This document shows, piece by piece, positions 32,545 to 54,327 of a DNA stretch of 64,000 nt. A program made the position numbers and the translations under genes. This DNA is from Prorocentrum cordatum (taxonomy: Eukaryota > Sar > Dinophyceae > Prorocentrales > Prorocentraceae), in contig CAUYUJ010015839.1 in the NCBI GenBank assembly GCA_963575745.1, positions 181,001 to 245,000 of the forward strand, written 5' to 3'. The notes beneath the pieces are model-generated. The model did no database searches, had not been told where the DNA came from, and saw nothing but the letters and a program-made list of their open reading frames with translations. Numbering within the stretch: position 1 is the stretch's first letter; each line of letters starts with the position of its first letter.

Positions 32545-32743
32545 TAATGCCAAGAGGATGTACGTGTATCGACACGCATGAACGAATAGCTCGGGCTCCT
32601 TGCAAGGCTTCGGGGGGGGCTTCGGATCACAACGCGAATAAAGGAGACAGGCCCGCAGTGAATTACGGGCATGATCGTGAGCTGTGGTCATCGGCGGCGC
32701 ACGCGGGAAAAAGCACGAATGCATCACGGCGCGGCCAACTTCA

Positions 32744-32924
32744 AGTCGGGCCTGTCCCCCTACAGGGGGATGTTCGACGATTTTTCAACCCAAACATAAA
32801 CAACATATATAATCAACAACTAGGTCTGGGGATTATCTTTTGAATATTGTTTGGCCTTCTTGGAACATTTTCATGCTTTTCTTATCCTTCGACGAAAATC
32901 CCCTGTAGGGGGACACGCCCGACA
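32744..32924 (+). mobile_element. TA-flanked TIR element, copy D
   Basis: 181 bp. AGTCGGGCCTGTCCCCCTAC pairs with GTAGGGGGACACGCCCGACA. The right flank is TA; the left reads CA, consistent with a mutated TA. It ends 27 bp before the spliced leader that begins the retrotransposon. Confidence 0.75.
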
Positions 32925-32951
32925 TAAGGCCAACTGTGCGTGCCTGGGGCG

Positions 32952-32973
32952 TCCGTAGCCATTTTGGCTCAAG
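32952..32973 (+). other. Dinoflagellate spliced-leader sequence, exact copy
   Basis: All 22 positions match the SL that dinoflagellates trans-splice onto nuclear mRNAs (the 5' T fits the ambiguous first base; the rest includes TAGCCATTTTGGCTCAAG). It is followed by the retrotransposon 5' leader of 81 nt and an ATG at 33,055. No GT donor follows, so it is not an SL RNA gene; it reads as the cap-end of a mature mRNA copied into DNA. Confidence 0.92.
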
Positions 32974-33054
32974 CCAGCTGGGCAGGAGCAGCGGCCTGGC
33001 CCTCGGCGCCCGGGCTCCGCGCGTACGGAAATCTGCGCGCGCGGCCGGTGCCGC

Positions 33055-34180
33055 ATGCCGGGCGGCCGCGGCGGCGGGCGCGGGCGAGCTGCCGGCAGGG
33101 TGTCGCCCGGCAGCCGGCAGGTGGACCCAGCGGTGCTCCCAGGGCCACGGGAGCCATGCTGGGGCTGTCAGTGCGGGCGCGCGGAAAACTGGGCCTGCCG
33201 CGTGCGCTGCCAGCGCTGCGACCGGGCTGCGCCGCAGCGGATCGCCAACGCTGTGCGGGCGGCGGCGAAGGAGTGGCAGACCGCGCGCGGACGGCGAAGC
33301 CGGACGCGCCGCGTGGCCAGCAGCGCCGTGTCGGCGGCGGGGCGGCTGGGGCGGCTGGGGCGGCCTCGTACGCGGAAGCCGTGAAACGCTTGCTGCCCCG
33401 CCTGGTGGCGCTGCAGCGCTTGGCGGTGTTCCCATGCAGCCGCCCCCGGTAGGGTGATCGCAGCAGGACCCGCCTGCCGCCGACCTGAGTCCTGCGCAGC
33501 GGGGGCTCAGGTACTGGCGCGATCGCCGGACGGCCGCCCAGCGCCATGGGGCAGCGGCGGACTTGGCGGAATGCGACCGCCAGCTCCAGGCCTTGGAGCA
33601 TGCTGCTCAGGCCTCGCGCCCGTGGGCAGTCCGGGTGCAGGCTGCCGCGGACTCGCAGCGGGCGGCGACGGCCAAGCTACAAACGGTCCGCGAGGACCTG
33701 GCGGAAGCCCAGCGTGCGGTCGCGCACTTCGAGGCCGAGGCGGCCAAGGCGGAGTTGGTCTTGCAGCAGGCCGACGCCGCGCTGCTGGCCGTTCAAGCGG
33801 AGGCGGCTTCGGCCCGTGCACCGCCGGCAGCGGCGGACCTGTCCGAGGCCGGCGTCGCGGCGGCTTTCGACGCCCTCTCAGCTGCCACCTCGGTGCTGCA
33901 GCAGCGTGGAGGCGGCGTCGGAGGCGGCGGCGACGCCGCGGCGCTCGTCGAGCAGCTTCGCGCGCTGGCCGCCCCACCGGCGCATGGGGCCGCCGCGGAG
34001 GCTCATGCCGCTGGTGCGGCGGGGGCCCAGGGAGGCGCCGCCGCCTCCGCGCCTGCCGCCGCCGGCATCGCTGGCGCCCCGCAGGTCCTGGCCCCCCGCC
34101 GCCGCCGGGAAGCGCTGCGCTGCCAGAGAGCGCAGCCGCTGGTGTTGCGCAGCGCGGCGACGCGCCCAGATCGCGGCGCG
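33055..34180 (+). pseudogene. LINE ORF1 (zinc-finger and coiled-coil protein), frameshifted
   Basis: The first part (33,055-33,384) begins at the first ATG after the SL. It carries W36-G-C38-x-C40-x4-N45-x6-C52-x2-C55, close to a RanBP2-type zinc finger, followed by RCDRAAPQRI. Two frame changes later (near 33,340 and 33,460) a second frame runs from about 33,479 (DLSPAQRGLRYWRDRR) through an alanine-rich coiled coil with heptad leucines (LAECDRQLQALEHAAQ, AKAELVLQQADAALLAVQAE). ORF1 proteins of LINEs usually bind the element RNA and often use coiled coils to oligomerise. That role is inferred from position and architecture. Downstream of about 34,180 the coding signal fades into alanine/proline-rich frames. 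Confidence 0.6.
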
Positions 34181-35198
34181 AGGTGGCAGGCGCCCGCCAC
34201 GCTGCAGAGGCCAGGCGGCAGGTCACGCTCCAGCAATGCGTGGACCGCCAGCGGCCTGCCTCCACGCCGCCCTCCCCAATCAGGCGGGGGGCGGCACGCG
34301 CTTGAGCGCAATTTGCGACGCTGCTGCTGCTGGGGGCTTTGGTGGCGACCCGTGGGGTTCGCCCACCCGCCCTCAAGGGGCCGCTGGCCGCGCTGCTGCT
34401 GGAGGCGCCGCCGGGGGCCTGGAGGGCTCGCCCGCTTCCCTCGCGGGGGCCGCCTGCGACGCCGCTGCTGGGGTCGCTGGAGGCGGCTCCTGCGTGGGCG
34501 ACTTCGTCCGCGCAGCTGGCGCCTCCGTGCGAACCAGCACGCCGGGGGCGGCCGCGGGCGGCTGGGGCGTGCTGGGCGCTTCCGCCAGGGGCGCCGCCGC
34601 GGGCGGCGCGGGGGGCGCGCTGGGCCCCCCCGCCAAGGGCCCCGCCGCGGGCCGCCCTGAGCCGGCGCCGGGGAGGCTGGCAGCAGAGGGTGCGGCGTCA
34701 CGATCGGCTACGGCATGTTCTGCTTCTACGCGGGCTGCCACCCGGGTCAAGCGGCGTCAGATGTAGCAACTAGCGTCCCCGGCGCGCGCGGGCGGAAGGA
34801 CTGTGGGCCGAATCCCACAGAGGTTGAAGCTGTCGCCGATCCTAGCCCTTCCCCTGCGGCCACCGGCCGCGCCGCTGTTGCTGAGCCTGGGGGCGCCTCC
34901 GGGCGAGGCCCGGAGGGCTCGCCCGCCTCTCTCGCGGGGGCTGCCTGCGGCGCTGCTGCTGGGGTCGCTGGAGGCGGCTCGGCTGGGGGCGCCGCTCTGT
35001 GGGAAGACGACCCGGGGCTCCATCTTCCCACCCCCCCTGGCGCCGCTGGCCACATTGCTGCTGCTGCCGCTGCTGCTGCTGGGGGCGTCGCTCGGGGCGG
35101 CACGCGGAGCAATGCCGCGGCTCGATGGCGGGGCTGGCCGCGGCGCTGCATCCGCGTAAGCGAAGCTCGGCACCCTGGGCCGGGCAGCGCGCGCGTCC

Positions 35199-36500
35199 TC
35201 GTGGCTGACTAACGCCACGAGCTGGCGCGCCAGCTGGCGCGGGCTGCTGGCGGCCGGGGCCGACGCGCATTGCATCCAGGAGGCGCGCGTGCCCGGCGGC
35301 GAGGGCGCAGCTGCCGCCGTGGTCGCAGAAGCTCGGCGCCGCGGACTCCGCCTGCAGCTCGGGGCCGCTGACGAGGGCACCCATCTGCTGGCCTTCGCGC
35401 ATAAGGAGGGCCTGCACGGCCTCCGCGCCGTGGAGATGGTCGGCCTGGCCCCAGATCAAGCCTGCCGGTTGCAGAATGCGGCCCTCCACCTGGGGGGCGA
35501 GCGGGCGCTGCACATCGTGCAGGATTATGGCCGCGCTGATGGCGCTGCCGGAGTGGAGCAAAACGAAGCGTTGCTCTTCGCCGCGGTGGCCTGGCTCCGC
35601 TCGCTTGGAGACGTGCCGGCGCTCCTGGTGGGAGATTTCAACCTCGTGCTCCACGAGACCATCGTGGAGCCCGGCCATGGCTGGCTGGCAGGACATCTTG
35701 GCCGCAGCCGGGCCGACGTGCCCGCCGAGCTCGGGCCGCCCGTCCCGGATCGACCACGTGCTCGCCAACGGGGCTGCGGCTGAACACGCGGCGTCTGCTG
35801 GCCTGCGCTGGGACCTTGGGTTGGCGACGCATGCAGCGCTGGAGGTGGAGCTGGCGGTCGAGCCGCCCGAGCACGCAGCAATGCGGGGGAAGCCAATGCC
35901 CCTCTGCGGGCCTGCCTCGGACGGCTGGCCAAACGCCCGGCGGGAAATTACTAACGAGGTGGTCCGGGAGCACGGGGCGGCCTTCCAGGATTGCATCCGC
36001 GACGGTCACCTAGCAGCTGCTTGGGGGGCGCTGGAGGCCGCCATGTGCCGATGGCTTAGCTGTCGTCAGGGTCACCTTCAGCCGCTGGCGCGCCGATATG
36101 CCAGCGCGAGGTGGCAGGCCAGCCGGCCCCGGGCCAGCGGCGCGGCTGGCGAGGCGAGCGACGCGGCCGCGGGTGCTGCGCTGCTCCGGCTCCGGCGCCT
36201 CCGCCCCATGCAGCACGCCGCGCGGCGCTGGGCCTGGGCTGCCGGCCTGCGCTGGCGGTGGCTGCGGCTCTCTGCAGAGATGAGCCGGTCGGGAGTCCTT
36301 GGGTGGTGGACCCGGAGCGCCTCGCAGTTGCGCCGGGCCTCCTCGACCGCTGCCTTGAGAGGGCGGCGGCGGACCACCAGGCGGCGCAGCAGGCTGCCCG
36401 CGAGCGACGCCGCACCTCTTGGCAGAGTGGGCTCGGCAGGCGATGGAGAATGGAGAAGGGCGCCTGCGCCGCTGGATCCGCGCTGACAGCGCCCTGGCTG
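35199..36500 (+). pseudogene. LINE ORF2: endonuclease (EEP) domain, frameshifted
   Basis: The frame starting WLTNATSWRASW contains the landmarks of LINE apurinic-type endonucleases in the right order: CIQEARVPGG (the QE metal-binding Glu), LLVGDFNLVLHE (the GDFN box) and, after a frame change near 35,690, PSRIDHVLANG and LATHAALEVEL. The usual SDH ending appears as ATHAALE, a likely loss. The linker to the reverse transcriptase is arginine/alanine-rich. The enzyme would nick target DNA to prime reverse transcription; with at least one frameshift this copy should be inactive. Confidence 0.7.
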
Positions 36501-36559: not shown

Positions 36560-38400
36560 GGTCGGCGGTGGTGTCGATCGCTCCGCGGGAGACGCTGCCG
36601 CTCAGCTCAGGTACTTCAAGCACCGCTGGCGGGCGCTATGGCAGCGGCGAGTCCCAGCGACGCCCGACATCGAGCACTGGCTGGTCGAGCTCGACTCTCT
36701 GCCAGCATGTCCGGAGAGAGCGCCGGCGACGGCCGACCTAGTCCGCTCAATCCTCACGAGGATGGCGAAGCGCAAAGCACCGGGCCTCGAGAGCTGGACC
36801 GTGGCCGAGCTTCGCCTGCTTCCCCCGGAGCTCCTGGGTTGGGTCGCGGAGCTCTTCGAAGCTGCGGGGCGGGCGGGCCGCTGGCCAGACGAGCTCTGCC
36901 AGCCACGGGGGCCTGCTGCTGCCCAGGGCGGGCGACGGTGGGCCCATGGATCGTCGACCGATTTGGTTGCTCCCGTTGCTGTGCCGCGTCTGGGCGGCAG
37001 GCCGGTCGCAGCTGTTTGCGCGTCGGCGATTGGCCTGGGGCGACGGCGACGGCAGCGTCGGGTCCGAGGAGACCGCGCGGGACCTCGCTCTTGACTCGGA
37101 GGCTGCGGAGGCGGCTGGGGAGGCCATTTGCGGAGGAGCTTTGGACTGGAGGAAAGCTACCGACCACGTCGGCCTGCCGATCCTGGAGCAGGCGCTCACT
37201 CGCGCGGGCGTGCCAGCATGGCTGCGCACTGCGCGCCCCGCTGCTTGCCACCTACCGGGCGCCTCGCCGGCTCCGCGTTGAGGGCGCTCTTGGCCGACCG
37301 TGGGTGCCGACCAGTGGGATCCTGCCTGGCTGCGCGCTGGCCGTCTTCGTGCTGAGCGCGCCGCGTCTACGCTGATGGTCACGCTCTGCGGGCCCGCGGG
37401 GACCCCGACGAGACAGCGGAAGCCGTCGCCGAAGCCTTGCGGATCACTCGCGCCTACGAGTCAGACTTCGACTGGCGGCTCCACGAGGTGAAGAGCAATC
37501 AGTTCGCCAACAGCGCTTCGGTGCGACGGTGGTTCCAGAACGAAATGCCATCAATCTCAGTGGGGACCGAGGTCCGCGACCTCGGGGTCGTCGCGGTCGC
37601 GGGGAGGCGTCGCAAGCACCCCGTGTCCTCCGCGCGGGCGCAGCTGGCTCGCGGCCGCTTTGCGCGCCTGCGCCGCCTGCCAGTGCCCTTCCGGCGGCGG
37701 TGCCTGATGGGGGCTGCCGCCGGCACGGCTGCCGGCACCTGCGGGTCGTCCTGCGCTCGCCCCGCCGCCAGGGACCTCGAGCAGCTCCGCTGGGCTGCCA
37801 AGGGATCCACCGGCCATGGGTCACGCGCGGCGGCTGAGATCACGTTCGGCGTCCTCAGCCCCACATGGCGCCTAGGCCCCAAGGCGGCCGCTTCCATTGC
37901 GCCCGTGCTGCAGGCTGCGCAGGCGCTCCGGGCAGGACAGCTCGACCTCGCGTCGTGGCGAAACGCGGCTGCCGCGGTCAACGCCGGCGCTGCGCGCGCC
38001 GTTGGGCCGGTGGCCGCCGCCTTGCGCAGCCTGCGCGAGCTCGGGCTAGGCCACGACGCGGGGCGCTGGGTCGGGGTGCCTGCGGCGCCGCACGGGCGGC
38101 GCCCAGCTGAGCAGTCGAGGCGCGCCACAGAGCGAGTGGTCATCGCGGCGCGGCGTCGGGCCGAGTGCCGCAAGGTGGCAGCGCGTCGGCCGTGCTTCGC
38201 CCACCTGGCCCAAGGGATGGGCCACGCGACGCCTGCTCTCGGCCTCGGCCGCGCCGAGGAGGGGCGCGCCGCCCGCGCGGGGATTGGCCGAGTCCCGGCC
38301 GGGCCAACCCGCGCTCGAGCGGGGGCGCCCCGCGCCGGCTGGCCCCCCCAGCACGCCCGGCGGCCCCGGGGGCGCTCCCGGAGGCGCTCCTGGCAACCCC
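36560..38400 (+). pseudogene. LINE ORF2: reverse transcriptase domain, frameshifted, YADG
   Basis: RT landmarks are spread over three frames: LRYFKHRWRALWQRR and KRKAPGLESWTVAELRLLP (36.6-36.85 kb); MDRRPIWLLPLLCRVW and ALDWRKATDHVGLP, the motif-A region with its Asp (36,946-37,175); TSGILPGCALAVFVLS, motif B (about 37,310-37,360); and RVYADGHALRARG, motif C (from 37,362). Then follows NQFANSASVRRWFQNE and EVRDLGVVAVAGRRR, a typical post-RT thumb-like stretch. In motif C the second catalytic Asp of the usual YADD is Gly (37,377-37,379). The frameshifts and YADG mark a dead copy. Confidence 0.75.
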
Positions 38401-38678
38401 CTTAAGTTGCGCCCCCTGCATGGCGCGCCCCCTGGCGGCCCCCCAGCAGCTCCGGCGGCCGCCGCGCCAGCGGCCCCCCGCTCGGCCCCGGCCGCGCCGA
38501 GGAGGGGCGCGCCGCCCGCGCGGAGATTGGCGGAGCCCCGGCCCAACTCGGCCAACCCGCGCTCGAGCGGGGGCGCCCCGCGCCAACTGGCCGCCCCAGC
38601 ACGCCCGGCGGCCCCGGGGGCGCTCCCAGCGGCCCCAGCGCTGGCGCCTGAGGCTGCTTCGGCTCTGCGCCGCGTCAT

Positions 38679-38978
38679 GTGCGGCAGCATCGTGACCGAG
38701 GCCGCTGCGGCGAAATGGATGGGCAACGCCCGCGCTGGGGACTAGCTCGCGAAGACCACGAACGTCGCCTCTGGCTGTGCCCGGCGTGGGAAGGCCCGCG
38801 GCGCGCCGCGCTTGCCGCGGCGCCACGGTCGGAGACCCTGCCGAGCGACGCCGGTGCCTTGAGGCAGCTGCTGCCCGCCGGAGTCGCGCTGACGGGGTTT
38901 CTAGCGCTGTCGCCGCTCCTCGCTGCCCTCGCGGAGGCCGCCGGGAGCGTGGGCCCGCAGCTCCCGCCCCAGGCATAG
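38679..38978 (+). pseudogene. LINE ORF2 C-terminal region
   Basis: An open frame ending at the TAG near 38,978 reads GLAREDHERRLWLCPAWEGPRR. This resembles the H/C-rich tail (HxxWxCPAW) found at the end of ORF2 in related LINEs. The cysteine pair normally preceding it is not clear, suggesting decay. It follows a GC-rich stretch with a duplicated block of about 160 bp (38,237 and 38,478). Confidence 0.55.
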
Positions 38979-39064
38979 CTGACCCCCGAGGCGCCCCGCC
39001 GCACGGTGCGGAGCGATGGGGCAGGCCTTCACCCCGCTGACCCGCTGCTCGCGCGAGCAGCATG

Positions 39065-39077
39065 CTTCGCTGAGCGG
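39065..39077 (+). repeat. 13-bp terminal-like repeat, left (partner at 55,516-55,528)
   Basis: CTTCGCTGAGCGG is the exact reverse complement of 55,516-55,528. TACTTATA follows inward at 39,089-39,096 and, inverted, at 55,505-55,512. They could be ends of one element of about 16.4 kb or the 3' ends of two oppositely oriented retroelements. Confidence 0.55.
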
Positions 39078-39178
39078 TTCGACTTAGCTACTTATACTTT
39101 GGCTTACATGCAAATGCAATCGACTTATCTTGAATTGAAACACAAACGGTTTAATGCCAGTTTGATAACTGATTCACA

Positions 39179-39223
<45 letters not shown>

Positions 39224-39290
39224 ATATAAGTCACATATAAGTCAAAGCTAAGTGAAAGCTAAGTGAAAGCTAAGCCAAATCGAAAATCCA
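39179..39290. repeat. (AT)n with AAGCTAAGTGA repeats
   Basis: About 40 bp of TATATA, then AAGTCAAAGCTAAGTGAAAGC twice. The left neighbour 39,080-39,108 reads the complement of this word, so the AT-run is the centre of a loose palindrome. Similar AAGTCAAAGCTAAGT words lie at 55,230-55,290. Confidence 0.6.
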
Positions 39291-39402
39291 AATGACATTA
39301 CAAAAATCGGCACCCTTTTTTGCAAGCTATACATCGGCAAAGATCCTGCGAGGGTGCGATCCGAGTGAGGGGCGCACAGGCAGGAACCCCACCTCCACTT
39401 CT

Positions 39403-39422
39403 TCCGCATCGTTTCGCTCAAG
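39403..39422 (+). other. Possible spliced-leader relic
   Basis: TCCGCATCGTTTCGCTCAAG matches the two ends of the SL (TCCG and CTCAAG) with a diverged, slightly shortened middle. It lies about 98 nt upstream of the transposase-like ATG. Weak on its own. Confidence 0.35.
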
Positions 39423-39519
39423 CGGTTGGCTCGCCACTGCTGGTTTTCACGCACACCGTTGGCTCGCCACCGCCACCGATGCCGTACTCGCCGCGATTTC
39501 AGCACGCCGTTGCCCAAAC

Positions 39520-41675
39520 ATGGTTGTCGACGATTCTTCAAAGAAACGCAGGCTCATGCTTTCGCAAGTTGCGCCTACCTTGTCATTGAACAAATTGCAA
39601 CAAATAGCCAGAGAATGTGGAGTGGATGGCTCCGAACAGGACATGCGCAGAGTATTGAATCAAGAGCTGAACGTGCACGCGCCATTCGGCCAACTTTTGC
39701 CCGTTATCGATATTGACCTTGCCGAAAGAGAGCGCTACCCAACGTTATGCTGCAACCCGTTGGCGTTGCTTTATTGTTTGTGTGGCAACACAAATGGAGG
39801 TTCAGGGGGTATTCTGTTTTCAGATATGCTTGAGAGATGTTGCAACGGAACAATTTCAATAGTTTGTACACTGACAAGCTGCAAGCTGCCAACCCGCTCA
39901 ATCCCGACCAGGCGAAAGAGCTTCAAGCTGTCTATTTACGCGCTGCTGCGAAACCCGACGACGATGCCCCGCCCCCTGGAGGAAACTCAAAAACACCACA
40001 GAGAAGCATCACCAACTCACACGCTGCGAACCCACGGCCGCCTTGATTCCAGGGCCGCGGACTGGACCATCAGAGAGCTCCCGAGGTGGGTGAGATGTCG
40101 CGACGAGGGTTGGTGGGCATTGTGTTTCTTCCCTTTTGAACACCAGGAGAAAGTGTCGGCTGGACTCAGTGGCCTCGCGAAACAACTTCTGAAACGCACT
40201 TTCTTCAACCAAAAAACTTGCAACCTTGAGGCGGTGATCTTGCTCCCCAACAGCCGCGGTGGGCGCACAGAATAAAGGGGAAGATTCTCTTGCGCGGTGC
40301 AAGATGAGGAGGCGCACAAAAACTTTTGGTCGGTTAAAGGTGCAAGCGGATTCAAGGCTTGCATCTGCTGCAGGAACGTGGTTCGGACGCCGAGGTATAA
40401 AATAGAAGGATCTGAATATGCCAAGCATCTCCAGGACGCTGTCCCATCAGATTTCGTTTTGCACACGCCAGATTCATTCGAACACATGGTCGATGAACTC
40501 AAGAGAGCGAAGCCGCTGCTGGCCCCGGGCCGATTCGCTGAGAAAGAGAAAGTTTGCGGTGTGAATTTCAACGAGGATTCGATTTTGCATGACCCCCTTC
40601 TCAGGAAATGGCTAAACCCAGTGAAACACACCTACTGGGATTGGATGCACTGTTTGGTGGCATCAGGAGGAGTGTGCCAACTTGAGGTCAACGCTTTCTG
40701 CGTGAAGCTCCTATCGGAGCCGCATTGCATAGACTTGGGCTCGTTGGACGTATTCCAGCAATCGATTTTGTGGCCGAATGGATCGCTGCCGGAAGAATTT
40801 GTCATGATCGCGTTCTGCGCAATGGGGAGTGTCTGAAAGCATGGGCAGGCGAGACTATCTTCGCCGTTCACGCGCTGGTGAAATTCTCCGAGCTGGTGTT
40901 AGTTCCGAGCGGGACGCTGCTGGAGGAGGTGCGTTGTTTGCGCCTGATTTCCAAAATATTGGATATGCTATCGACCCCCGCGTGCGCTATCAGTAACACT
41001 AGAGACATGGAGGCTATCTTGACTGAGCACCATAAACTCATCAAAGATCTGTATGGTGTATCGTATGTGAAGCCGAAGCTGCACTATGGACACCATATTC
41101 CCAGCAATATCGATGACGTCGGCGACGTCCTGTCTTGCTTCTCCACCGAACGCAAACACAAGTATGCGAAGGTCATCGGGCGACACACGTATGGCGAACA
41201 TTGGGAACACCAGGTTATGAAACGACAAGTGTTGGACATCCTTTCGCGCTTCGATGGTGGACTTAGGCCTGAATGGTTAGCAGGCCAGGTGGCTCACGAT
41301 AACCATTCTGCGCTGTTGATACAGCAGGCGCACGGCATCACTGACAGTTTGGGATCGGTCCAATCATCAACTAAGATGGTGACTGAAATTGGGGAACTGC
41401 GCCAGAACATGCATATACTGGTTTCAACAACTCTCGGACACCGGCTGGGGAAATTGTCTAATTTCGTTTGTGGGCGCCCGACGTTATCGAACCGATATTT
41501 GCATTGTGTTATGTGGGTGCCACTATTATCGGGCCCGGGCGGCCTCTGGACCCCGAGTGCCACCGAGAAATTGCGCAGTGCGACGCGCCAGGTGGCGCGG
41601 GCCATCCCCGCCGCCAGATGCCGCGACGGGGTCGAGCCGATTGTGCCGCAACTCCCAGGCTTGAACATCGCATGA
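39520..41675 (+). pseudogene. DDE-transposase-like gene, frameshifted
   Basis: The coding signal starts at ATG 39,520 (VVDDSSKKRRLM). It passes through QLLPVIDIDLAERERYPTLC, NPLNPDQAKELQAVYL (another frame) and ELPRWVRCRDEGWWALCFFP. It then continues with DEEAHKNFWSVKGASGFKAC with a CxxC-like CICC, THTYWDWMHCLVASGG, KAWAGETIFAVHALVKFSEL, VKPKLHYGHHIPSN and LSCFSTERKHKYAKV. The W-D-W-M-H box and the KPKLH...H...ERKHK block sit where CACTA/KDZ-type transposases carry their second Asp and their Glu (inference from motif order). I recall a repeated family of this kind in dinoflagellates. Frame changes fall near 39,840, 40,040, 40,262, 40,300 and 40,803, with an in-frame TAA at 40,273, so this copy is dead unless the breaks are sequence errors. 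Confidence 0.65.
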
Positions 41676-42113
41676 GCGTTTTCGAAGGGTTTGACCCAGG
41701 TGCCGAAGCAAAACCAAACATCACATCAACACCATTTGCCATCCACATCCTCATGATCATCATCGTCAACCCCCTCGGCATGCATACTTGCCGCTGCGAT
41801 TGGGGGTTGGCTCGCCACCCCTCGCCGCCCTTATCGTACTCAGCATGTGTTGTTCGTGTTGGTGATGGCTCGCCACTCCGACCTCCTCTGCCTCGTCTTA
41901 TTCTCCTGCATCCTCCTCCTCGCAAATGCCCCTTCTCTCTGACAGTTGCGCATGGGCATGGAAATCCGCGCCCCACTTTGAGCGGGGAGAAGGTTGGGAT
42001 TGTCGGAGGGAAGATGGATGGGAGTAGAAGGACGGGTTGGGGTTGCGAACGATGGGTGGGGCAGGGGGTGCGGGGGAAGGAGGGGGTTGGGGGGTGGGGG
42101 GCATGACGGCTCC
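41676..42113. other. Intergenic spacer
   Basis: Contains two GGCTCGCCAC words (41,812 and 41,867) also found near other genes of this segment, then a G-rich stretch (41,980-42,105). Confidence 0.4.
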
Positions 42114-42136
42114 TCCGATAGCCGTTTTTGGTCAAG
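42114..42136 (+). other. Spliced-leader relic at the KH-like gene
   Basis: TCCG-A-TAGCC, G, TTTTT, GG-TCAAG aligns to the full SL with two single-base insertions, one substitution and one deletion. One base separates it from the ATG at 42,138. It marks this gene as a likely reinserted copy of a trans-spliced mRNA. Confidence 0.65.
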
Positions 42137-42137
42137 C

Positions 42138-43370
42138 ATGGCTACTTCCCCAGTGACCCTGCCACCCCACGAAGCTGTCGATGTTGGCTTCCATATTCAG
42201 TTTCCGATGTCTGGCGGGACTCTGACCAGCCAGGACAGAATCAGAATAAAGGAGGAAACTGGGTGCACGGCAACAACTAGAGACCGACGCGACGGGCGTG
42301 GCAGACTCGTCACGTTGAAGGGGCCACAGAGCATGCAATCGCGAGCATATAATCTCGCCAAAAAGCTGATTGAGGCGAACGGCCTTGACGGGGGCAGACG
42401 CCCGGGCAACCAGCGCGAATCCCAGGAGCAGCCGCGCGAGCAACAACGTGCAGAGTGGCAAGACACAGAGTTGCCGCATGCGTGGTCTGCCGAGTGGCAA
42501 GATTGGCAAACAGACGACTGGCACGGAGCGCAGTGGCGCGCTCCCCAGCAATCAGCAGGAACAGCTGGGCCGCAGCAGCAGCAGGAACAGCCGACCAGGG
42601 CCGCAGCAGCAGCACCAGGAACAGCTGGGCCGCAGCAGCAGCAGGAACAGCTGGGCCGCAGCAGCATCTGGGCAACACCAGTGCCTTGGCGGCCAGCTGG
42701 GCCGCAGCAGCAGCAGGAACAGCCGACCAGCTTGGCCGCAGCAGCAGCGGCAGAAACAGCTGGGCCGCAGCAGCAGCAGGAACAGCTGGGCCGCAGCAGC
42801 ATCTGGGCAACGCCAGTGCCTTGGCGGCCAGCTGGGCCGCAGCAGCAGCAGGAACAGCCGCAGCAGCAGCAGCAGCAGCATGAGCAATACTTCACAGCAG
42901 CAGCAGCAACAGCAGCGACGGACCCTGCAGCAGCGCATCAGGCGCAGCAGCTCCATCATCAGAACTCCCAGCACATCAGGCATTGGGAGATGATTCACCA
43001 GACGAACTTGGAGTGGGAGCAGCTGATGGCACATTGGAGAGCGTCTCCAACCATGGACGACAGCAACCCTCTCAACACACGACCCTGGGCTTCGACGCGT
43101 GAGAAACCTCCGCTGCCGAGACCCATTGGGTGGGTGCGCGCGCAGGTCGCTGCCATTGAAGCCCAAAGAAGACAGCAACCTACCGCAGCTTCACCTTCAT
43201 CTGGCGGCGCAGCCCAAGCAGATCCTGCAGGAGCTGGCGAGGACATCGCGGACGCGGTGCTGAGAGCGCTGGGAGAGCAAGCAGCCGATCAGCAAGCAGA
43301 ACCGCGCGCAGAGGACTCAAGCGAAACATATCCCCCCGCCCCGCGGGGCGGGGGGATGGGAGCCCCATGA
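42138..43370 (+). CDS. KH-like domain protein with glutamine-rich repeats
   Basis: An intact ORF of 410 residues from the first ATG after an SL relic. Residues about 15-84 read like a KH RNA-binding fold (DRIRIKEETGCTATTRDRR, GRLVTLKGPQSMQSRAYNLA, KKLIEANG), although the GxxG loop is replaced by SGGTLTSQD. Residues about 135-255 are AGPQQQQEQ repeats with a 45-residue (135-bp) unit, GRSSIWATPVPWRPAGPQQQ, present twice. A less biased C-terminal part (HWEMIHQTNLEWEQLMAHW, PLPRPIGWVRAQVAAIEAQR) follows and ends in acidic PRAEDSSETYPP. RNA binding is inferred. The stop is followed at once by GC-rich inverted repeats. Single exon, as expected for a retroposed gene. Confidence 0.65.
   Translation: MATSPVTLPPHEAVDVGFHIQFPMSGGTLTSQDRIRIKEETGCTATTRDRRDGRGRLVTLKGPQSMQSRAYNLAKKLIEANGLDGGRRPGNQRESQEQPREQQRAEWQDTELPHAWSAEWQDWQTDDWHGAQWRAPQQSAGTAGPQQQQEQPTRAAAAAPGTAGPQQQQEQLGRSSIWATPVPWRPAGPQQQQEQPTSLAAAAAAETAGPQQQQEQLGRSSIWATPVPWRPAGPQQQQEQPQQQQQQHEQYFTAAAATAATDPAAAHQAQQLHHQNSQHIRHWEMIHQTNLEWEQLMAHWRASPTMDDSNPLNTRPWASTREKPPLPRPIGWVRAQVAAIEAQRRQQPTAASPSSGGAAQADPAGAGEDIADAVLRALGEQAADQQAEPRAEDSSETYPPAPRGGGMGAP
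42545..42890 (+). repeat. CAGCAG-rich tandem repeat inside the KH-like gene
   Basis: CTGGGCAACNCCAGTGCCTT occurs at 42,668 and 42,803, a 135-bp period, embedded in GCCGCAGCAGCAGCAGGAAC words. Confidence 0.85.
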
Positions 43371-43520
43371 GGGGGCGGCGGGGCCTCGCGAGGCCCCCTA
43401 GGTCGTCCCCTCATGAGGCCCCCAGGCGCCCCCTGATGAGGCCCCCTCTTCAGGCTCCCACCCCCCCGCCCCGCGAGGCGCCCTCGTCCCCTCATGAGGC
43501 CCCCGGGGGCGGCGGAAGTG
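43371..43520. repeat. CCTCATGAGG palindromic repeats
   Basis: CCCCTCATGAGGCCCCC and variants (GGGGCCTCGCGAGGCCCC, CCTGATGAGGCCCCC) occur about six times directly behind the KH-like gene. Confidence 0.75.
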
Positions 43521-44035
43521 CGAGAGGCGGCGAGCCGACCACTTGAGACGGCGAGGGTGGCGACTGCAAGATCGAGGGCGACGACGACGACGACGGTTGC
43601 CCCCTGCAACATCCAGGGATGAGGATGCCTGAATATGCTTCCAAGCCGACGCCGTCGGGTGATCTTCGAGCCACTGGAGGCCCTCTCGAACCCTCAGCCC
43701 GAACAAGGTGGGGAGGGGGGGCTCGTGACATCCCGCGCAGGAGCCGACGGTCCTGCAGCAGGATGCGTACATGACGCCCCGCAGCCAGCCGCCAGATCAC
43801 AGTTCTCCCACGGAGATTGGTTTTCCCACGGAGGTTGATCTGACGCCGACCGAGTGAGCGGCGCTCGCATTTTCACCTTTAGACGGCTCGCCGCAATCGA
43901 ATCGCATGCGCTGAGAGCGCAAATCGCGCTGTGTCGCCGCGTTAAAACAATGGCCCCTTTCTCGAACGGTTTGGAGAATGGTTGGGGTGTCTGTTGACGG
44001 CTCGCCGCAGCAGACGCCGCAACCTTGAGATGAGG
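43521..44035. other. No gene recognised
   Basis: Contains a CGACGACGACGACG run, TTCTCCCACGGAG(A/G)TT-like duplicates (43,803 and 43,823) and two GACGGCTCGCCGCA words. Confidence 0.4.
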
Positions 44036-44049
44036 CACTCAGCTGAGCT

Positions 44050-44240
44050 CGAATGGCATTGCCATAGCAAAGCATAGCATAGCATAGCAGTAATCTGGCA
44101 TGCCATATCGTAGTAGTACTCTGACACGCATGTAATCTGACAAGTCATAGCATAACAGCAATCTGGCATGGCAATCTTGGCACCTCGTAACATATCATAG
44201 CAGTAACAGCGTAGCATGGCAGTCATAGCGTAGCAGTCAT
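44050..44240. repeat. CATAGCA / AATCTGGCATG short repeats
   Basis: About ten CATAGCA(G) words interleaved with AATCTGGCATG. Confidence 0.75.
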
Positions 44241-44456
44241 AGCAATCTGGGTGTTCGTGCCGCCTTCAGCGGAGGAGGAGTTGATGGCAGGGCCCTTTAT
44301 AAAGCCCATTCAGCGTCAGCAGCGAACTTATCTCAAAGCAGTGCGATGGTCCTCCTCCTTCTGCATGTTTTAGAGTGTCCCCCTCCTCCTCCTGCACCCG
44401 CCACCCACCCGCCGCCCGTTTTGTAATGGCAGGGGTCTCTATTGCAAAATGGCCGC

Positions 44457-44665
44457 CCCTCCTCCTCCTCCTCCTCCTCCTCCTCCCCCTCCTCCCCGTC
44501 TTCCTCCTCCTCCTCCTTCTCCTCCTCCTCCTCTTCTTTCTCAACCCACCACCCGCCCGCCGCCCACCGCCCGCCCGCCCGCGACTCGCCACCCACCCAC
44601 CACCCACCCGCCACCCACCCACCGCCCACCCACCACCCACCACCCACCACAAGAAGAGCGCCCTC
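44457..44665. repeat. (TCC)n and (CCCACCAC)n tracts
   Basis: A CTCCTCCTCC run (44,459-44,545) followed by CACCCACCCACCACCC repeats. Confidence 0.9.
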
Positions 44666-44669
44666 GTTC

Positions 44670-45230
44670 TTGTGGCGTTGTTCGTGGGGCCACGCTTGAT
44701 GGTTGCCACCCGCAGCTGCTTCGCGGCTCGCCGAGTGTAGCTTCTTTTGTTTGCTTGGTATGTCGTTTCCAACCAGCCCTCCTGCTGCCCGGGGCGCCCC
44801 TGGCATTGGCGGTGCGCAAGCAATCCGTCGGGCGAAATACAGAGCTCGAAGAGGAGCGGGCGAGGGCGGACGCAAGAGGTCGGGTGAGGAGCGGGCGGGG
44901 GCGGGGGAGGTAGAGGGGCACTGTGCGCAACAGAAACATGAAGAACACTAGTCAACGCACAAAGTGGGGTGGACAGGGACGCGCCATCAGAAGGGCGTGG
45001 CAGACACGACTGTTGCTTGCAAGTGTGCGTCTCGACGGATGCGGAGGGGGTGCCTCCCCATTGGGCAGTGCCGACCCCCCTCTGCGCACTCGCCCAACGC
45101 TGCGACCCCCACCCACCCGACAAACCTCGATATGTTCAGGCACCCACCCACATCCCCATCCCAAAAGAAACGCCACGGTGAGTTAGCGAAGATACTCGCG
45201 CAGCGCGGAATGTATAATAAAACGAAACGA
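44670..45230. other. No gene recognised
   Basis: Spacer between simple repeats and the zinc-finger gene; no coding motif. Confidence 0.4.
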
Positions 45231-45254
45231 CGTTGGTCACGAACCCATTGGCAC

Positions 45255-45303
45255 CGCAGCCGATTTTGGCACGAACCCATTTACAATCCATATTGGCCTT
45301 AAG
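45255..45303 (+). other. Tandem spliced-leader relics
   Basis: CCGCAGCCGATTTTGGCACG (45,255-45,274) differs from the SL by a T-to-C change, a one-base insertion and a change in CTC. Behind it, TCCATATTGGCCTTAAG (45,287-45,303) matches the last 15 SL bases with a few changes. The next ATG is at 45,345. Confidence 0.5.
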
Positions 45304-45344
45304 GGCCGATAGTTGTACCGCGCGCGTGACATTACGCGTCGAGC

Positions 45345-45998
45345 ATGCCGCAGAAGCAAAAGGGCGAGTGCTGTTGGTGGAACCAGGTTGACCAGCGCGA
45401 GCTGGAGATGGAGCCGAAGCACAGGCCAGAGTGGATAATTAATACAGCAGGTGAACGGTTGATTCCAGAGTGGTACTATTGGCAGCCCGATGCATGGGCG
45501 TTCAAGTGCTTGTTGTGCAATGTGGAGGCGCCGAATGAGAGCCACGTGATTTCGAACAAACATCAGAATGGTCTGCGGTGGAAGCCGAAGGAGATGTTCG
45601 CAGACCAGGCAAAACTGATTTCGAGGGTGATTCCAAATACTGAGTATGACTACGAGGACCCGTGGGACCTCAACCCAGCGAAGCAAATTGGCGATCGCGG
45701 TGATGCTCCTGCCGGTGGTGTTGGGAGCAGAGGCCCGTGGGTGCATCGTGATGGAGATGGTGCGTTGGCGCCGGCGCATCCGCAGCCGCCGCCTGGGCTG
45801 GGTCGCGACGATCACCGCGTCGAGTTTGATGAAATCAGAATGGAGATACGGAGTCTAAACACTGCGGTAGAAGGTCTTCAGAATCTTGTGCTGGCACTGT
45901 CTGCTGCGGTTCGTGAGTTGAGCGGTCAGCCTCCAGCGACGCAAGATGGCGCGCCGAAAGGAACCCCAAAAGAGGAGTCCGATGATGGCGCTGAGTAA
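45345..45998 (+). CDS. Small C2H2-like zinc-finger protein
   Basis: An intact single-exon ORF of 217 residues. Residues 51-73 (WAFKCLLCNVEA, then SHVISNKH) give C55-x2-C58-x8-H67-x5-H73, a zinc-finger spacing resembling U1/matrin-type RNA- or DNA-binding fingers. An acidic, tryptophan-rich N-terminal part precedes it (ECCWWNQVDQ, PEWYYWQPD). Residues about 160-195 (FDEIRMEIRSLNTAVEGLQN) look like a coiled coil, and the tail is acidic. The ATG lies 42 nt behind tandem SL relics, supporting the start and a retroposed origin. The name-level function is unknown; I recall similar small finger proteins in dinoflagellates. Confidence 0.7.
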   Translation: MPQKQKGECCWWNQVDQRELEMEPKHRPEWIINTAGERLIPEWYYWQPDAWAFKCLLCNVEAPNESHVISNKHQNGLRWKPKEMFADQAKLISRVIPNTEYDYEDPWDLNPAKQIGDRGDAPAGGVGSRGPWVHRDGDGALAPAHPQPPPGLGRDDHRVEFDEIRMEIRSLNTAVEGLQNLVLALSAAVRELSGQPPATQDGAPKGTPKEESDDGAE

Positions 45999-46310
45999 AC
46001 GTTTGGTGATTAAGGCCATTTTGGGTTCGGCCGAACCCACTTCGCCACTGGCGCAAGCCTCGCGACGAGTTTTCGTGCGCGAGCAACAGATTTCTTTACT
46101 TTAAGAGCCCTGCCACGCTCGCCAGCCACCAACCATCGCCATATGTGTTTTATGTGCTGGATATGCCCGAGTGTTCGAGCTACAGAGATCTGTGGGCGTC
46201 GCCCCATGACCTCCCCGCGGAGCACCGGGGCATTCGCGGGGGCTCGCCCCGAGACAAAACACGACACCGTCATCGACATCATCGCCGCCATCTACTCCTG
46301 TCCTGCTCGT
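45999..46310. other. Spacer with a 16-bp palindrome
   Basis: GGGTTCGGCCGAACCC at 46,023-46,038 is a perfect palindrome, 25 nt behind the stop of the zinc-finger gene. No gene seen. Confidence 0.5.
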
Positions 46311-46317
46311 GTCTTTG

Positions 46318-47054
46318 GGAGGAGGAGGAGGAGGAGAAGGAGGAGGAGGAGGAGGAGGGGGGGGGGGAGGGGGGGGGAGGAGGAAGAGGAAGAGGGAGGA
46401 GGAGGGGAGGAGGAGGAGGGTTAGGGCGAGGAGGAGGAGGAGGAGGATGAGGAGGCCACCCCAACAGTTTCAAATTTGCAAAAATTGCGGCTCTTAAACT
46501 TCCATGCGAATGAGGGAGGAGGAGGAGGAGGAGGAGGAGGAGGAGGAGGAGGAGGAGGAGGAGGAGGGGAATAGAAACCGAAGTATCCCAAAAACGATAG
46601 ACTGGCATATCCTCGGGGAGACCCGGAACGGGGGGCCAGACCAGGGGGGCCAGGGGGGGAGGAGGAGGAGGGCGAGGAAGAAGAGGAGGAGGATGAGGAT
46701 GAGGATGAGGAGGAGGAGGAGGAGGAGGAGGAGGAGGGAGGAGGAGGAGGAGCGGCCGTGCCTCTTGCATGCGATCCCCCCGCGCTCGAGCTCGGAGGCC
46801 CCTGCAGGTCCTGGAGGTATATTCCACGGAGCCGACAGTCAAGGAGGGGGGAGGAGGAGGAGGAGGCAGGGGAGGAGGGGGAAGGGGAGGAGAGGAGGAA
46901 GGGGGGGAGGAGGAAGAGGAGGTGGAGGGGGAGGAAATGGAGGAGGAAACGGAGTAGCAGGAGCAGGAGCAGGAGGAGGAAGAGAGGAGGAGGAAGAGGG
47001 GGAGGAGGAGAAGGAGGAGAAGGGGGAGGATACATTTGATCGGGAGGAAGAGGA

Positions 47055-47087
<33 letters not shown>

Positions 47088-47180
47088 GGAGGAGGAGGAG
47101 ACAGGGAGGAGGAGGGGGAGAAGGAGGAGAAGGAGGAGGAGGAGGAGGAGGGAGGAGGAGAAAAGAGGGAGAGGGAGGAG
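46318..47180. repeat. Long (GGA)n polypurine region
   Basis: Several GGAGGAGGAGG tracts (46,318-46,450; 46,513-46,566; 46,650-46,755; 46,840-47,180) are separated by short unique islands. Frames are poly-E, poly-R or poly-G, or poly-S/P/L on the other strand. No gene called. Confidence 0.9.
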
Positions 47181-47189
47181 GTATGCACG

Positions 47190-47345
47190 CCGCGCAGGCC
47201 CCGCCGTGCATGCCACAGCCGCCCCGTGCATGCCCCGCGCATACCCCGTGCCTGCCCCGTGCATGCCGCAGCCGCCCCGCGCATGCCCCATGCGTACCCC
47301 GTGCGTGCCCCGCGCGCGCCCCGCGCATACCCCGCGCATGCCTAA
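47190..47345. repeat. CCCCGTGCATGCC minisatellite
   Basis: About twelve degenerate 10-12 nt words (CCCCGCGCATG, CCCCGTGCATG). Confidence 0.75.
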
Positions 47346-47380
47346 CGCGCGGCGCAGTGGGAGGAGGAGCCCTCCTGGAA

Positions 47381-47420
47381 CCCTCTGGGCGCATACACCT
47401 GCAGGGCTCGCCCGCGGAGG
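47381..47420 (+). repeat. 40-bp exact repeat (second copy at 49,787-49,826)
   Basis: CCCTCTGGGCGCATACACCT followed by GCAGGGCTCGCCCGCGGAGG is identical at both sites, and each runs directly into a GGA-rich tract. Confidence 0.9.
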
Positions 47421-47424
47421 AGGA

Positions 47425-47545
47425 GGAGGGGAAGGAGGATGAGGAGAAGGAGGAGGAGGAGAAGGAGGCGGAGGAGGAGGAGGAAAAGGAGGAGGAGGAG
47501 GAGGAGGAGGAGGAGGAAAAGGAGGGGGAGGAGGAGGAGGAGTAG
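47425..47545. repeat. (GGA)n tract
   Basis: Purine-rich GGAGGAGAAGG repeats. Confidence 0.9.
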
Positions 47546-47644
47546 GACCAGGGCTCCTCCTCGCCGCGCTTCGGACGTCGAGCACCTCCACTTCATTCAG
47601 GCCTCCTCCTCCTCCTCCTCCTCCTCCTCGTCCTCCTCTCCTCC

Positions 47645-47760
47645 TCTCTAGTCTGCGGCGCGTTGTTTTGCAGATCCCCTCGTCGCGGCGAGCCGTCAAT
47701 GCTTCGCAGCTCGAGAACAAGGCCTCCTATGGGCGGCAATGGAGCTGTGAGACTACAGCC
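47645..47760 (-). repeat. Inverted copy of the 54.2-kb flank module
   Basis: The reverse complement of this stretch shares GTTCTCGAGCTGCGAAGC, TTGACGGCTCGC and GAGGGGATCTG with 54,240-54,302, each next to a (TCC/GGA)n tract. Confidence 0.75.
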
Positions 47761-47789
47761 GCCCCCGGGGGCACTCCTGTTACCTTCCT

Positions 47790-47885
47790 TCTTCCCCTCC
47801 CCCCTCCCCCCTCCTCCTCCTCCTCCCCCCCTCCCTCCTCCTCCCCCCCCCCCCTCCTCCTCCTCATCCTCCTCCTCCGTCTTCC
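47790..47885. repeat. (TCC)n tract
   Basis: CCCCTCCTCC runs with C8-10 homopolymers. Confidence 0.9.
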
Positions 47886-48008
47886 TTGTCGCCGTCGCCC
47901 CCCAGCCACGAGGTGCGCCTAGACGGCCGCTCAGCGATCTCACGCGCTGTTCCCCCCCAACACGTGGCCCCTGCAGTAGCACCCCATCACAGGCGACACC
48001 TGTCGGAG

Positions 48009-48164
48009 GGCACCAACTATACACCAGCGCCGATCCTGGCCCAGGATCACCCTGGGCCCAGGATCGGTGTATATGCCTTCTTGCGCAAGGCAGGAGTGCG
48101 TATACCCCGATCCTGGGCCCAGGGTGATCCTGGCCAGGATCGGTGTTGGCGCATAGTTGGTGCC
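48009..48164. mobile_element. Fold-back (inverted-repeat) element, 156 bp
   Basis: Two arms of about 75 bp are almost complementary. GGCACCAACTAT begins the left arm and ATAGTTGGTGCC ends the right, and both carry CGATCCTGGCC and GATCACCCTGGGCCCAGGAT. A small central loop separates them. No ORF. It sits downstream of the methyltransferase exons; GATCCTGG words are shared with 25.0-25.2 kb. Confidence 0.85.
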
Positions 48165-48169
48165 TTCCT

Positions 48170-48330
48170 AACCTGCGCTTCGAGGCTCGCGACGTCTCCT
48201 TCGAGCTCAACGATGCGACGGGACAAGGCCGCGTTCTCGTTGACAGCACGGGCGAGGACTTGGGCAGCCTTTCGGTCCCAGGATTCGTCCTCCCCCTCCT
48301 CCTCCGCCTCCTCCTCCTCCTCGCCCTCCT
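48170..48330 (-). CDS. Possible coiled-coil exon fragment
   Basis: The frame on the minus strand, in phase with the methyltransferase second exon, reads ESWDRKAAQVLARAVNENA then ALSRRIVELEGDVASLEAQV. It has heptad-spaced leucines, valines and alanines and is preceded by an acidic run. It may be the C-terminal extension of the methyltransferase or an exon of another gene. It ends at the fold-back element. Confidence 0.35.
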
Positions 48331-48399
48331 CCACCTCTGCCTTTTTTCCATGTCCGCATCGCTCCGGGCGGCCGTGTCCATGATGAGCGACACGGCGGA

Positions 48400-49270
48400 G
48401 AACAAGCCATGAGCGGGGTGGAATTTCGACAGAGAACGTCCTTCGGAATCCTCTCAAGAACACGCGGATGCGACTCTGTGGCAAGAGGTACTCATTAGCG
48501 TTGAGCGTCACGACCTGCGTCTGCGATGTTTCCGCACCCTTTTGGTGAATTTCCGTTGCGCCCCCTCCCCCCGTGCATCCCCGTCCAGATTCCTGACCCC
48601 CTTCGGAATGTTTCTGGGGTCGCCCTGATCCCCAGGAATGGTATGAGGGCGCGGCTCTATCGCAGCCGATTTTCCGCGAATGGCCTCCCGGGTGAACTCG
48701 TTGCACGCGAGCCGCAACGCCTCGAGAAATCTATGCATGACTGGTTCCCGCCCTTGCACGTTATGGAGCACCCCGATTGCGTTTTCTAGAATCGCACCGA
48801 TGAGCCCGCCAGCTTTGATCAAATAAATGCACCATTCAATCACTCTGAGAAATACTTTGCCGCGATGATCGTCTAGAGATTTGTCGGCCCCTAGGGCTGA
48901 CCAGGGGGGGCACGGGGGTCCGCTCACCACGAAATCGATGGGTTTGCTCAGCGCGGGCATGGCCACTCTCGTGATGCCCCCCGCAACGCGGCCAAGATGC
49001 AATTCTGCAGCGATGCTGTCGACGCTTTGGCCGAGTTCCTGCAACTGCGCGCGCAGGTAATCGTGATACCCAGGTTCCAGATCATAACAGTTTTTCGTGT
49101 CGGCACCCACGCCCATGCTGAGCATCGATTGACCGCATCCGTGAATGCCCGCGCATGGGCTTGAAACAGTAATGCGCCTACCCAGGGAAGGCAACGATGT
49201 GAAGTAGTCTGCCCAGGAAGGAAGTGGAGGCGTCATCCCCACATCTCTCGCGAATGCGTCCTCTGGGGCC
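48400..49270 (-). CDS. Cytosine-C5 DNA methyltransferase-like gene (two exons seen, partial)
   Basis: Predicted to transfer a methyl group from S-adenosylmethionine to cytosine C5 in DNA. Exon 49,270-48,685 follows a 3' splice site (CACCTTACAG). It holds RRITVSSPCAGIHGCGQSM (motif I-like, SAM binding), DFVVSGPPCPPWSALG (motif IV, catalytic Cys in PC) and GGLIGAILENAIGV (motif VI, ENV-like Glu). A 170-nt intron (48,684-48,515) opens GC after ...CGGGAG and closes ...GACGCAG. Exon 2 then reads VVTLNANEYLLPQSRIRVFL (motif VIII, QxRxR). Motif order and spacing fit the family. Motif X and a clear target-recognition region were not found, and upstream exons are unresolved behind a GGA tract. C5-methyltransferases are known in some dinoflagellate retrotransposons; whether this one is mobile is open. 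Confidence 0.75.
48515..48684 (-). other. GC-AG intron in the methyltransferase gene
   Basis: Donor CGGGAG|GCCATTC and acceptor GACGCAG|GTCGTG. Removing it joins TTC ACC CGG GAG to GTC GTG ACG CTC in frame and brings motif VIII into register. Confidence 0.75.
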
Positions 49271-49379
49271 CTGTAAGGTGCGCGGGGGGGGGAGGGGGTG
49301 GTGGTGGCGGGAGTTCCCTGAATCCCCGCGGGGCTCTGGGCTTCTGGGCCCTGGATTTTCTGACCCCGGGAGAGGGTTT

Positions 49380-49540
49380 TCAAGAGGGGGTGGAGGGAGG
49401 GGGCCAGGGATGGGAGGAGGAGGATGGGAGGAGGAGGAGGAGGAGGAGGAGGAGGAGGAGGAGGAGGGGGAGGGAGGAGGGAGGAGGGAGGAGGGGGGAA
49501 GGAGGAGGAGGGGGAGGAGAAGGGACAAGGAGGAGGAGGA
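49380..49540. repeat. (GGA)n tract
   Basis: GGAGGAGGAGGAGG and GGGAGGAGGGAGGAGG runs, probably intronic or upstream of the methyltransferase exon. Confidence 0.9.
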
Positions 49541-49786
49541 CGACCCAGTATAGACATGCGCATTGTCCCCGCTGTGATCCTCGCAGTCGGCAGCGCCGCG
49601 CGCAACATCTGTTTGCGGCGCGCATGCGCGCGGCGGCGCCAGCGTGGCGGCCATGGCCTTGCAGGGATGGGGCGAGCCCGCTTCCCAGACTGCGATATAA
49701 TCCCGAGCCCAAATGGCGCGCGAGGGCTCCAGGAAGGCCCTCAGAGGCCCCCAAGAGGCCGATCAGGAGCAAGAGGCCCCCAAGAG

Positions 49787-49935
49787 CCCTCTGGGCGCAT
49801 ACACCTGCAGGGCTCGCCCGCGGAGGGGGAGGAGGAGGGGGAGAAGGAGAAGGAGGACGAGGAGAAGGAGGCGGAAGGGGGGGGGGTGGGAGGAGGAGGA
49901 AGAGGAGGAGGATGAGGAGGAGGAGACGGCAGCCC
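49787..49935. repeat. 40-bp exact repeat (second copy) plus GGA tract
   Basis: 49,787-49,826 is identical to 47,381-47,420; GGAGGAGGGGGAGAAGG-type purine repeats follow. CCAAGAGGCC words lie just upstream (49,740-49,790). Confidence 0.85.
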
Positions 49936-49970
49936 TTCCCAGACATTCCAAGACAACATTGGAAAGCCAA

Positions 49971-49990
49971 TTCGAAGTATATACTTCGAA
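49971..49990. repeat. Perfect 20-bp palindrome
   Basis: TTCGAAGTATATACTTCGAA is fully self-complementary. It could be a cruciform-forming or protein-binding site; the context gives no further hint. Confidence 0.7.
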
Positions 49991-50175
49991 CCCCCTTCCC
50001 TTCCTCCATCTTCCCCTACCTCCTCCCCCCATCCCTCCCACCTCCTCCCTCTCCCTTTCCCCCCTCCATCCACCTCCAGTTTCTATTGCCTGAGGGCGTG
50101 CGCCTTTGAGCGCTCCCTCCTCGCAGTTTGCGGTCTTGAGTTTTCTTGCCCCGCCTCCCGATCCCGCGGCAGAGC

Positions 50176-51580: not shown

Positions 51581-51587
51581 CCACTCT

Positions 51588-51611: not shown

Positions 51612-51687
51612 TGTCTGGGCTCGCCCAACGCAGAGGGCTCGCCCCTGCATTGCCTGTCTTAGACAATCCCAAGCGACTTTCGGGGCC

Positions 51688-54325: not shown

Positions 54326-54327
54326 CT

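Follow-up and report, generated by a model that had tools for sequence, protein, structure and literature searches.

A dinoflagellate LINE family headed by the spliced leader, with ladders of spliced-leader relics

A split LINE with the spliced leader as its first bases

The window (the whole 64-kb stretch of Prorocentrum cordatum DNA analysed here) holds a decayed LINE that is split by a 16.5-kb insertion with terminal inverted repeats (TIR), and the first bases of this LINE are the dinoflagellate spliced leader (SL; Table 1). All 22 SL bases match on the plus strand, which is the sole match in the window at up to three mismatches, and 100 shuffles of the sequence gave 0 matches. An earlier reading of the letters alone (the sequence-only reading) had described the complete SL at the LINE head, an 81-nt leader and an ATG, followed by 6 kb of GC-rich DNA, and each of these points stands: the ATG at 33055 directly follows the leader and opens a 109-codon frame, and G+C content is 70–82% in 500-base steps over the 6 kb after the head. 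Two of its boundaries are corrected. The small TIR element upstream, bounded by its own 8-bp duplication GGCCAACT at 32733–32740 and 32928–32935, ends at approximately 32927, placing it 24 nt before the SL and not 27 bp. The LINE does not end near 39.06 kb; the insertion interrupts it there, and beyond the insertion it can be followed until the window and a relative (L035) diverge past ~55.8 kb. A search of the window against Rfam at gathering scores returned nothing.

Table 1 Features of the spliced-leader-headed LINE and its neighbours in the window.
Feature	Position	Strand	Remark
Small TIR element upstream, separate from LINE	32741..32927	.	Inverted repeat; boundaries by eye
Putative 5' copy of the LINE's target-site duplication, GTGCGTGCCTGGGGCG	32936..32951	+	Adjoins SL; read by eye; starts GTG
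Dinoflagellate SL, exact 22 nt, first bases of LINE	32952..32973	+	Same position in relatives
LINE leader, 81 nt	32974..33054	+	Common to relatives
ORF1 start, Cys-rich zinc-finger-like stretch (by eye)	33055..33384	+	No Pfam match
AP-type endonuclease part of ORF2, frame-broken	35160..36294	+	Exo_endo_phos on read-through pieces, below cut-off
Reverse transcriptase part of ORF2, frame-broken; motifs DWRKA, YADG	36594..38222	+	Motifs by eye; relatives match RVT_1 / LINE-1 ORF2p
Remainder of LINE 5' block, to split in RNase-H-like part	38223..39064	+	
16,464-bp insertion with 13-bp perfect TIRs, splitting LINE	39065..55528	.	L035 uninterrupted here
LINE continuation past insertion	55529..55803	+	91% to L035 4909–5179

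The coding remains of the window copy are fragmentary. The sequence-only reading had called ORF1 zinc-finger-like; the Cys-rich stretch is visible by eye within the 109-codon frame and has no Pfam match. It had also reported endonuclease and reverse transcriptase remains. Single frames from the window gave nothing relevant against Pfam, and the broken ORF2 read through its interruptions matched Exo_endo_phos at E 4.6e-4, its 20.5 bits falling short of the curated cut-off (24.5), while the reverse transcriptase of this copy is recognised by eye only.

The insertion carries an open reading frame at 48508–49608 (minus strand) of which residues 213–258 match the C-5 cytosine DNA methylase family PF00145 (E 3.9e-6; 27 bits, cut-off 22). 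Comparison with L035 suggests that this insertion made a 2-bp TG duplication.

Copies elsewhere in the genome

The genome (4,128,499,153 bases in 21,875 contigs) was searched with window positions 32940–33400 as a 461-nt query, which gave 43 matches with 40 of 146 candidates scored. Thirty loci, the window's own included, were extracted, with those on the minus strand reoriented. The sequence-only reading had expected other copies to share the SL as their precise 5' boundary, and SL or SL-derived units stand at the head of 28 of the 30 loci (again with 40 of 146 candidates scored), a proportion that the query may have favoured since it contained the SL itself (query nt 13–34). Two of the 28 (L009 and L024) have decayed units only, with 2 to 4 mismatches in 15. 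The two loci without SL units (L014 and L032) are 5'-truncated, a common trait of LINEs, because their matches begin only at query nt 88 and 284. Flanks are duplicated in two pairs (L019/L023 and L026/L027), and dropping L023 and L027 leaves 26 of 28 loci with SL units. Sixteen loci align from query nt 24 or later, where at most 11 terminal nucleotides of the SL are involved, and 14 of these carry SL units, the exceptions being L014 and L032; L007 in this set has further small matches.

Nor do the copies continue upstream of the SL into common sequence. Among 27 flanks of at most 1 kb, taken from all loci but L009, L014 and L032, only the two duplicated pairs match over their length, and the other matches are short or of low complexity. 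A scan of viral contigs with the reverse transcriptase part of the window copy found no relative.

Some relatives are better preserved. Open frames of 1959 (L039), 1962 (L041) and 1929 (L053) codons were found, all three in SL-headed copies. RNase H domains are recognisable in L039 (RNase_H, E 4e-13) and L053 (E 1.2e-15), this being the only match for L039. L053 also reaches RVT_1 at E 3.5e-4, below the cut-off, and its reverse transcriptase region matches structures of LINE-1 ORF2p at E 3.2e-4 (8sxt) to 1.9e-3, as expected of a LINE-type reverse transcriptase. An AP-like endonuclease is indicated by the sub-threshold Exo_endo_phos match of the window read-through; the L039 and L053 frames gave no Exo_endo_phos match at E 0.01. 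ORF1 of L039 (443 aa) has a sub-threshold ATG16 match only, which we read as a coiled coil.

Target-site duplications enclose the spliced leader

Twenty copies were taken at 9.5 kb, and 19 of these (all but L038) were searched for target-site duplications, which should lie just outside the SL if the SL had been inserted with the element. Exact duplications of 16–18 bp were present in seven (L039, L040, L042, L044, L048, L050 and L053). The duplication adjoins the first base of a full SL in L040, L048 and L050; it is separated from the SL by 1 base in L044, 3 in L039 and 12 in L053, and the SL of L042 is 5'-truncated. Three further cases are doubtful: L041, where the repeat lies in a tandem repeat, L052, with one mismatch in repetitive DNA, and L035, with 11 G-rich bases after an A-run. 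No duplication was found in the remaining nine (L034, L036, L037, L043, L045, L046, L047, L049 and L051), and of these L049 alone shows a clear 3' end within the inspected sequence. Duplications of variable length and an A-rich 3' end are both typical of LINEs.

The exact duplications enclose the SL, which thus belongs to the inserted cDNA, and the intermediate was very probably a trans-spliced mRNA; this supports the proposal of the sequence-only reading that such an mRNA was reverse-transcribed to full length. The decayed LINE of the window very probably belongs to a dinoflagellate family, with an AP-type endonuclease, that uses SL-trans-spliced mRNA as its transposition intermediate.

Six of the seven exact duplications start with GTG (L044 with GCG). 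With six loci dropped from the count (L009, L014, L023, L027, L031 and L032), GTG occurs 13–18 nt upstream of the SL in 15 of 24 distinct LINE flanks and is lacking in nine, and five control windows of the same width contain it in 8, 7, 2, 6 and 4 of the 24 flanks. In the window copy, the 16 nt that precede the SL resemble the 5' copy of a target-site duplication and share this GTG start with six of the seven exact duplications of other copies; a search for the 3' partner of GTGCGTGCCTGGGGCG, or for any duplication pair of this copy, found none.

Ladders of spliced-leader relics

Many copies begin with a ladder in which a full SL is followed by up to four perfect 15-nt relics. The relic, CCATTTTGGCTCAAG, is exactly SL nt 8–22 and stands behind the outermost SL. 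Such a step of 15 nt is what splicing of a new SL onto the TAG within an old one should produce. The same joint has been described in dinoflagellate transcripts, where the old SL receives a new one at its AG, after nt 7 (Jaeckisch et al., after Slamovits and Keeling 2008, in passages of PMC3229502). L021 and L030 each have a full SL and four perfect relics, and L016, whose SL begins with A, has three.

Genome-wide, exact counts were 14,218 for the SL, 1,202 for the SL with one relic and 167 for the SL with two; the corresponding reversed control patterns had zero occurrences each. The exact 21-nt SL was found in 16 distinct LINE copies, of which eight have at least one perfect relic and three have at least two, these three having three or four. 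LINE copies are enriched relative to all SL sites (Fisher p = 1.8e-5 for at least one relic and 8e-4 for at least two), a comparison to be taken as a rough yardstick because SL RNA genes and retrocopies of every kind may be counted in the genome-wide figure. When only sites with at least one relic are considered, the excess of deeper ladders in the LINE is not significant (p = 0.087).

We looked for a gradient of decay from outer to inner units and saw none: with single-unit arrays, gapped arrays and two duplicates left out, 14 mismatches were counted in 17 outermost units, 15 in 17 innermost and 1 in 15 middle units.

Closely related copies differ at the same place. L039, L040, L041 and L042 are 98.2–99.1% identical over ~6.2 kb, lie at different sites and have three, one, two and six SL units, respectively, the outermost SL of L042 being truncated. 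The bases between the last unit and their shared body also vary (TAACACATCTCACGAG, CACATCTCACGAG, TGACACATCTCACGAG or none), as expected if different splice acceptors were used. L051 and L053 (99.56% identical over 1,590 bp) have two and five units. L022 and L029 have a mutated innermost unit in common, behind outer units. In some copies the SL is separated from the body by additional bases, or the leader has been replaced. In L050, L051 and L053 unusual leaders directly follow the SL units, as if splicing had taken upstream sequence along.

The ladders imply trans-splicing in successive jumps, which goes beyond what the sequence-only reading had proposed, and repeated trans-splicing and insertion in the same lineages is the best reading of them.

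Other occurrences of the spliced leader

Ten sites with tandem SLs were picked at steps from the first 100 of the 1,202 places. None of the ten has GTG in the 19–24 nt upstream of the SL, compared with the 15 of 24 LINE flanks given above, so the present LINE is not supported as the source of the genome's other SL retrocopies. One of the ten, L062, has the LINE leader motif with (TCC)n upstream and without GTG; therefore not even all relatives show GTG. A TCC-rich repeat lies directly upstream of the SL in four of the ten (L054, L059, L061 and L062), possibly marking another LINE family with a microsatellite target. In L056 (G000:C322:49870-50670, first 75 bases), two perfect 16-bp direct repeats AAAAGAGCTCTACGAG enclose an SL, one relic and just three more bases, perhaps an insertion of an SL array alone. 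L056 and L058 have AAGAGCTCTACGAGG in common upstream of the SL.

Exact SL scans of viral contigs and of contigs from bacterial metagenome-assembled genomes (MAGs) yielded one viral (L001) and two MAG contigs (L002 and L003). L001, filed as viral in IMG/VR, carries two exact 21-nt SLs (2746–2766 and 2893–2913, minus strand) 147 nt apart, beside unlike ORFs, and may be a chimeric or dinoflagellate-linked sequence. The SLs at L002 32–52 and L003 4334–4354 are in contigs filed under Dehalococcoidia MAGs and perhaps reflect dinoflagellate contamination of the bins. The inspected sequence covers 1.3 kb of L001 and 400 nt of L002.

Alternative explanations

The SL units could instead form a promoter-like array, comparable with the monomer arrays of some LINEs, in which unit number changes by slippage or unequal exchange. 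The tandem and mostly perfect arrangement of the units and the lack of a decay gradient would suit such an array, and a TTT(G) promoter motif in retroposed SLs has been suggested for dinoflagellate retrogenes (passages of PMC6050394). However, the outer units are complete SLs of 22 nt, and exactly nt 1–7, the splice step, are missing from the inner ones; body junctions differ among copies that are 98–99% identical; the SL lies inside the target-site duplication; and a start within the array would be expected to lose outer units, not to add them. We consider this explanation unlikely. Less likely still, and in our view improbable, is that SL-headed copies are by-products, with productive elements using another 5' end and promoter while trans-spliced RNAs give rise to dead copies. 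The additional bases that several copies have between SL and body, like the differing leaders of L050, L051 and L053, would fit dead-end products of this kind, and many gene retrocopies are known to carry SLs (PMC12014239, in part). Yet the ladders would require SL-headed parents, no other head was seen in the 30 loci apart from the two 5'-truncated ones, and it is SL-headed copies that keep the three long open frames.

SLACS and CZAR of trypanosomatids are site-specific LINEs beside SL sequence, which is their target, and their type has a restriction-like endonuclease. A LINE that inserted into or beside SL RNA genes in this manner would have host SL at its edge, and an SL does stand at the element edge in relatives of the window copy. 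This reading is almost certainly wrong, since the SL is inside the duplications, seven of them exact, the flanks are unrelated, the relics form stacks and the endonuclease match points to the AP type; no restriction-like endonuclease domain was among the Pfam matches of the window read-through, L039 and L053. The target-site duplications, the flanks and the counts were the grounds for rejecting SL-gene targeting, a single chance event of this kind, and coincidence.

Proposed cycle

The reading we prefer remains a LINE family copied from SL-trans-spliced mRNA. The SL-bearing RNA is reverse-transcribed to its first or nearly first base, and insertion leaves target-site duplications and an A-rich end. 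From the genomic SLs we infer that the copied RNA was SL-trans-spliced in the cell. An inserted copy would be transcribed from its upstream flank, perhaps inside a polycistronic transcript, because nothing upstream of the SL is shared among copies and the gain of a relic needs a transcript that extends upstream. The dinoflagellate genome is thought to resolve polycistronic transcripts by SL trans-splicing. The spliceosome would then attach a new SL to an AG located at the element head or close to it: use of the TAG at nt 5–7 of the genomic SL would add one more 15-nt relic, and use of the AAG at SL nt 20–22, or of an AG further in, would give a single fresh SL. The element's reverse transcriptase would copy this mRNA from its A-rich 3' end to its first bases by target-primed reverse transcription, and because it reaches those first bases the new copy would again be SL-headed.

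In such a cycle the genomic SL would serve as a splice acceptor that travels with the element, restores its 5' end in every round and is ready wherever the element lands, and the ladder would be a minimum record of completed rounds in each lineage. Since copying of a LINE starts at its 3' end, delivering a promoter and an intact 5' end to the new site is a standing problem. Host trans-splicing appears to solve it: RNA transcribed from upstream and spliced at the inserted SL acceptor would be capped and have a fixed 5' end. The element may exploit the SL or depend on it. We tentatively propose, short of calling it probable, that the family lacks a 5' promoter of its own and that every cycle depends on host read-through and SL trans-splicing, with the SL as a heritable acceptor and the stack of relics as a counter of generations.

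Comparison with known systems

SLACS and CZAR resemble the present family as LINEs beside an SL, and differ in that here the SL belongs to the insert and lies inside its duplication, among unrelated flanks. L1Tc/ingi elements of trypanosomatids are likewise LINEs in a host with polycistronic transcription and SL trans-splicing. L1Tc, however, has its own 5' promoter and ribozyme (Pr77), and Pr77 reporter transcripts lack the SL (passages of PMC4748587). In Hydra, approximately 30% of transposable-element Iso-Seq reads have a trans-spliced leader; these leaders are on transcripts, whereas SL-headed genomic copies or ladders are not described in the relevant passages (PMC12220107). The LINEs of Symbiodinium (PMC5890265, in part) are also from a dinoflagellate and have an ORF1 upstream of the reverse transcriptase ORF. 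Their ORF1 has a DNMT, which was not found in ORF1 of L039, and the terms spliced leader, splice leader and DinoSL appear nowhere in the text of that paper. The open-licence literature, as far as its accessible passages go, yielded no description of an SL-headed LINE family or of SL ladders on a transposon, which is not proof of novelty.

The closest likeness is with dinoflagellate DinoSL retrogenes (mRNA recycling; passages of PMC3229502 and PMC6050394), in which, as in the LINE family, a genomic SL heads reverse-transcribed copies and relics are cut after nt 7. SL relics on these retrogenes are well known, and the enzyme responsible is called unknown, with a lean to Ty1/copia (PMC6050394, in part), a view similar to that in passages of PMC3942190; for viral inserts, involvement of LINEs has been proposed (PMC10235124, in part). 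DinoSL retrogenes are host genes, whereas the LINE supplies an endonuclease and a reverse transcriptase of its own, as a rule has an SL at its head among the loci seen, and has ladders more commonly than SL sites genome-wide. A LINE that copies SL-headed mRNA thus bears on the question of the dinoflagellate retrogene enzyme. With the host SL serving as its 5' terminus in one cycle after another, this LINE family is a combination of two known kinds.
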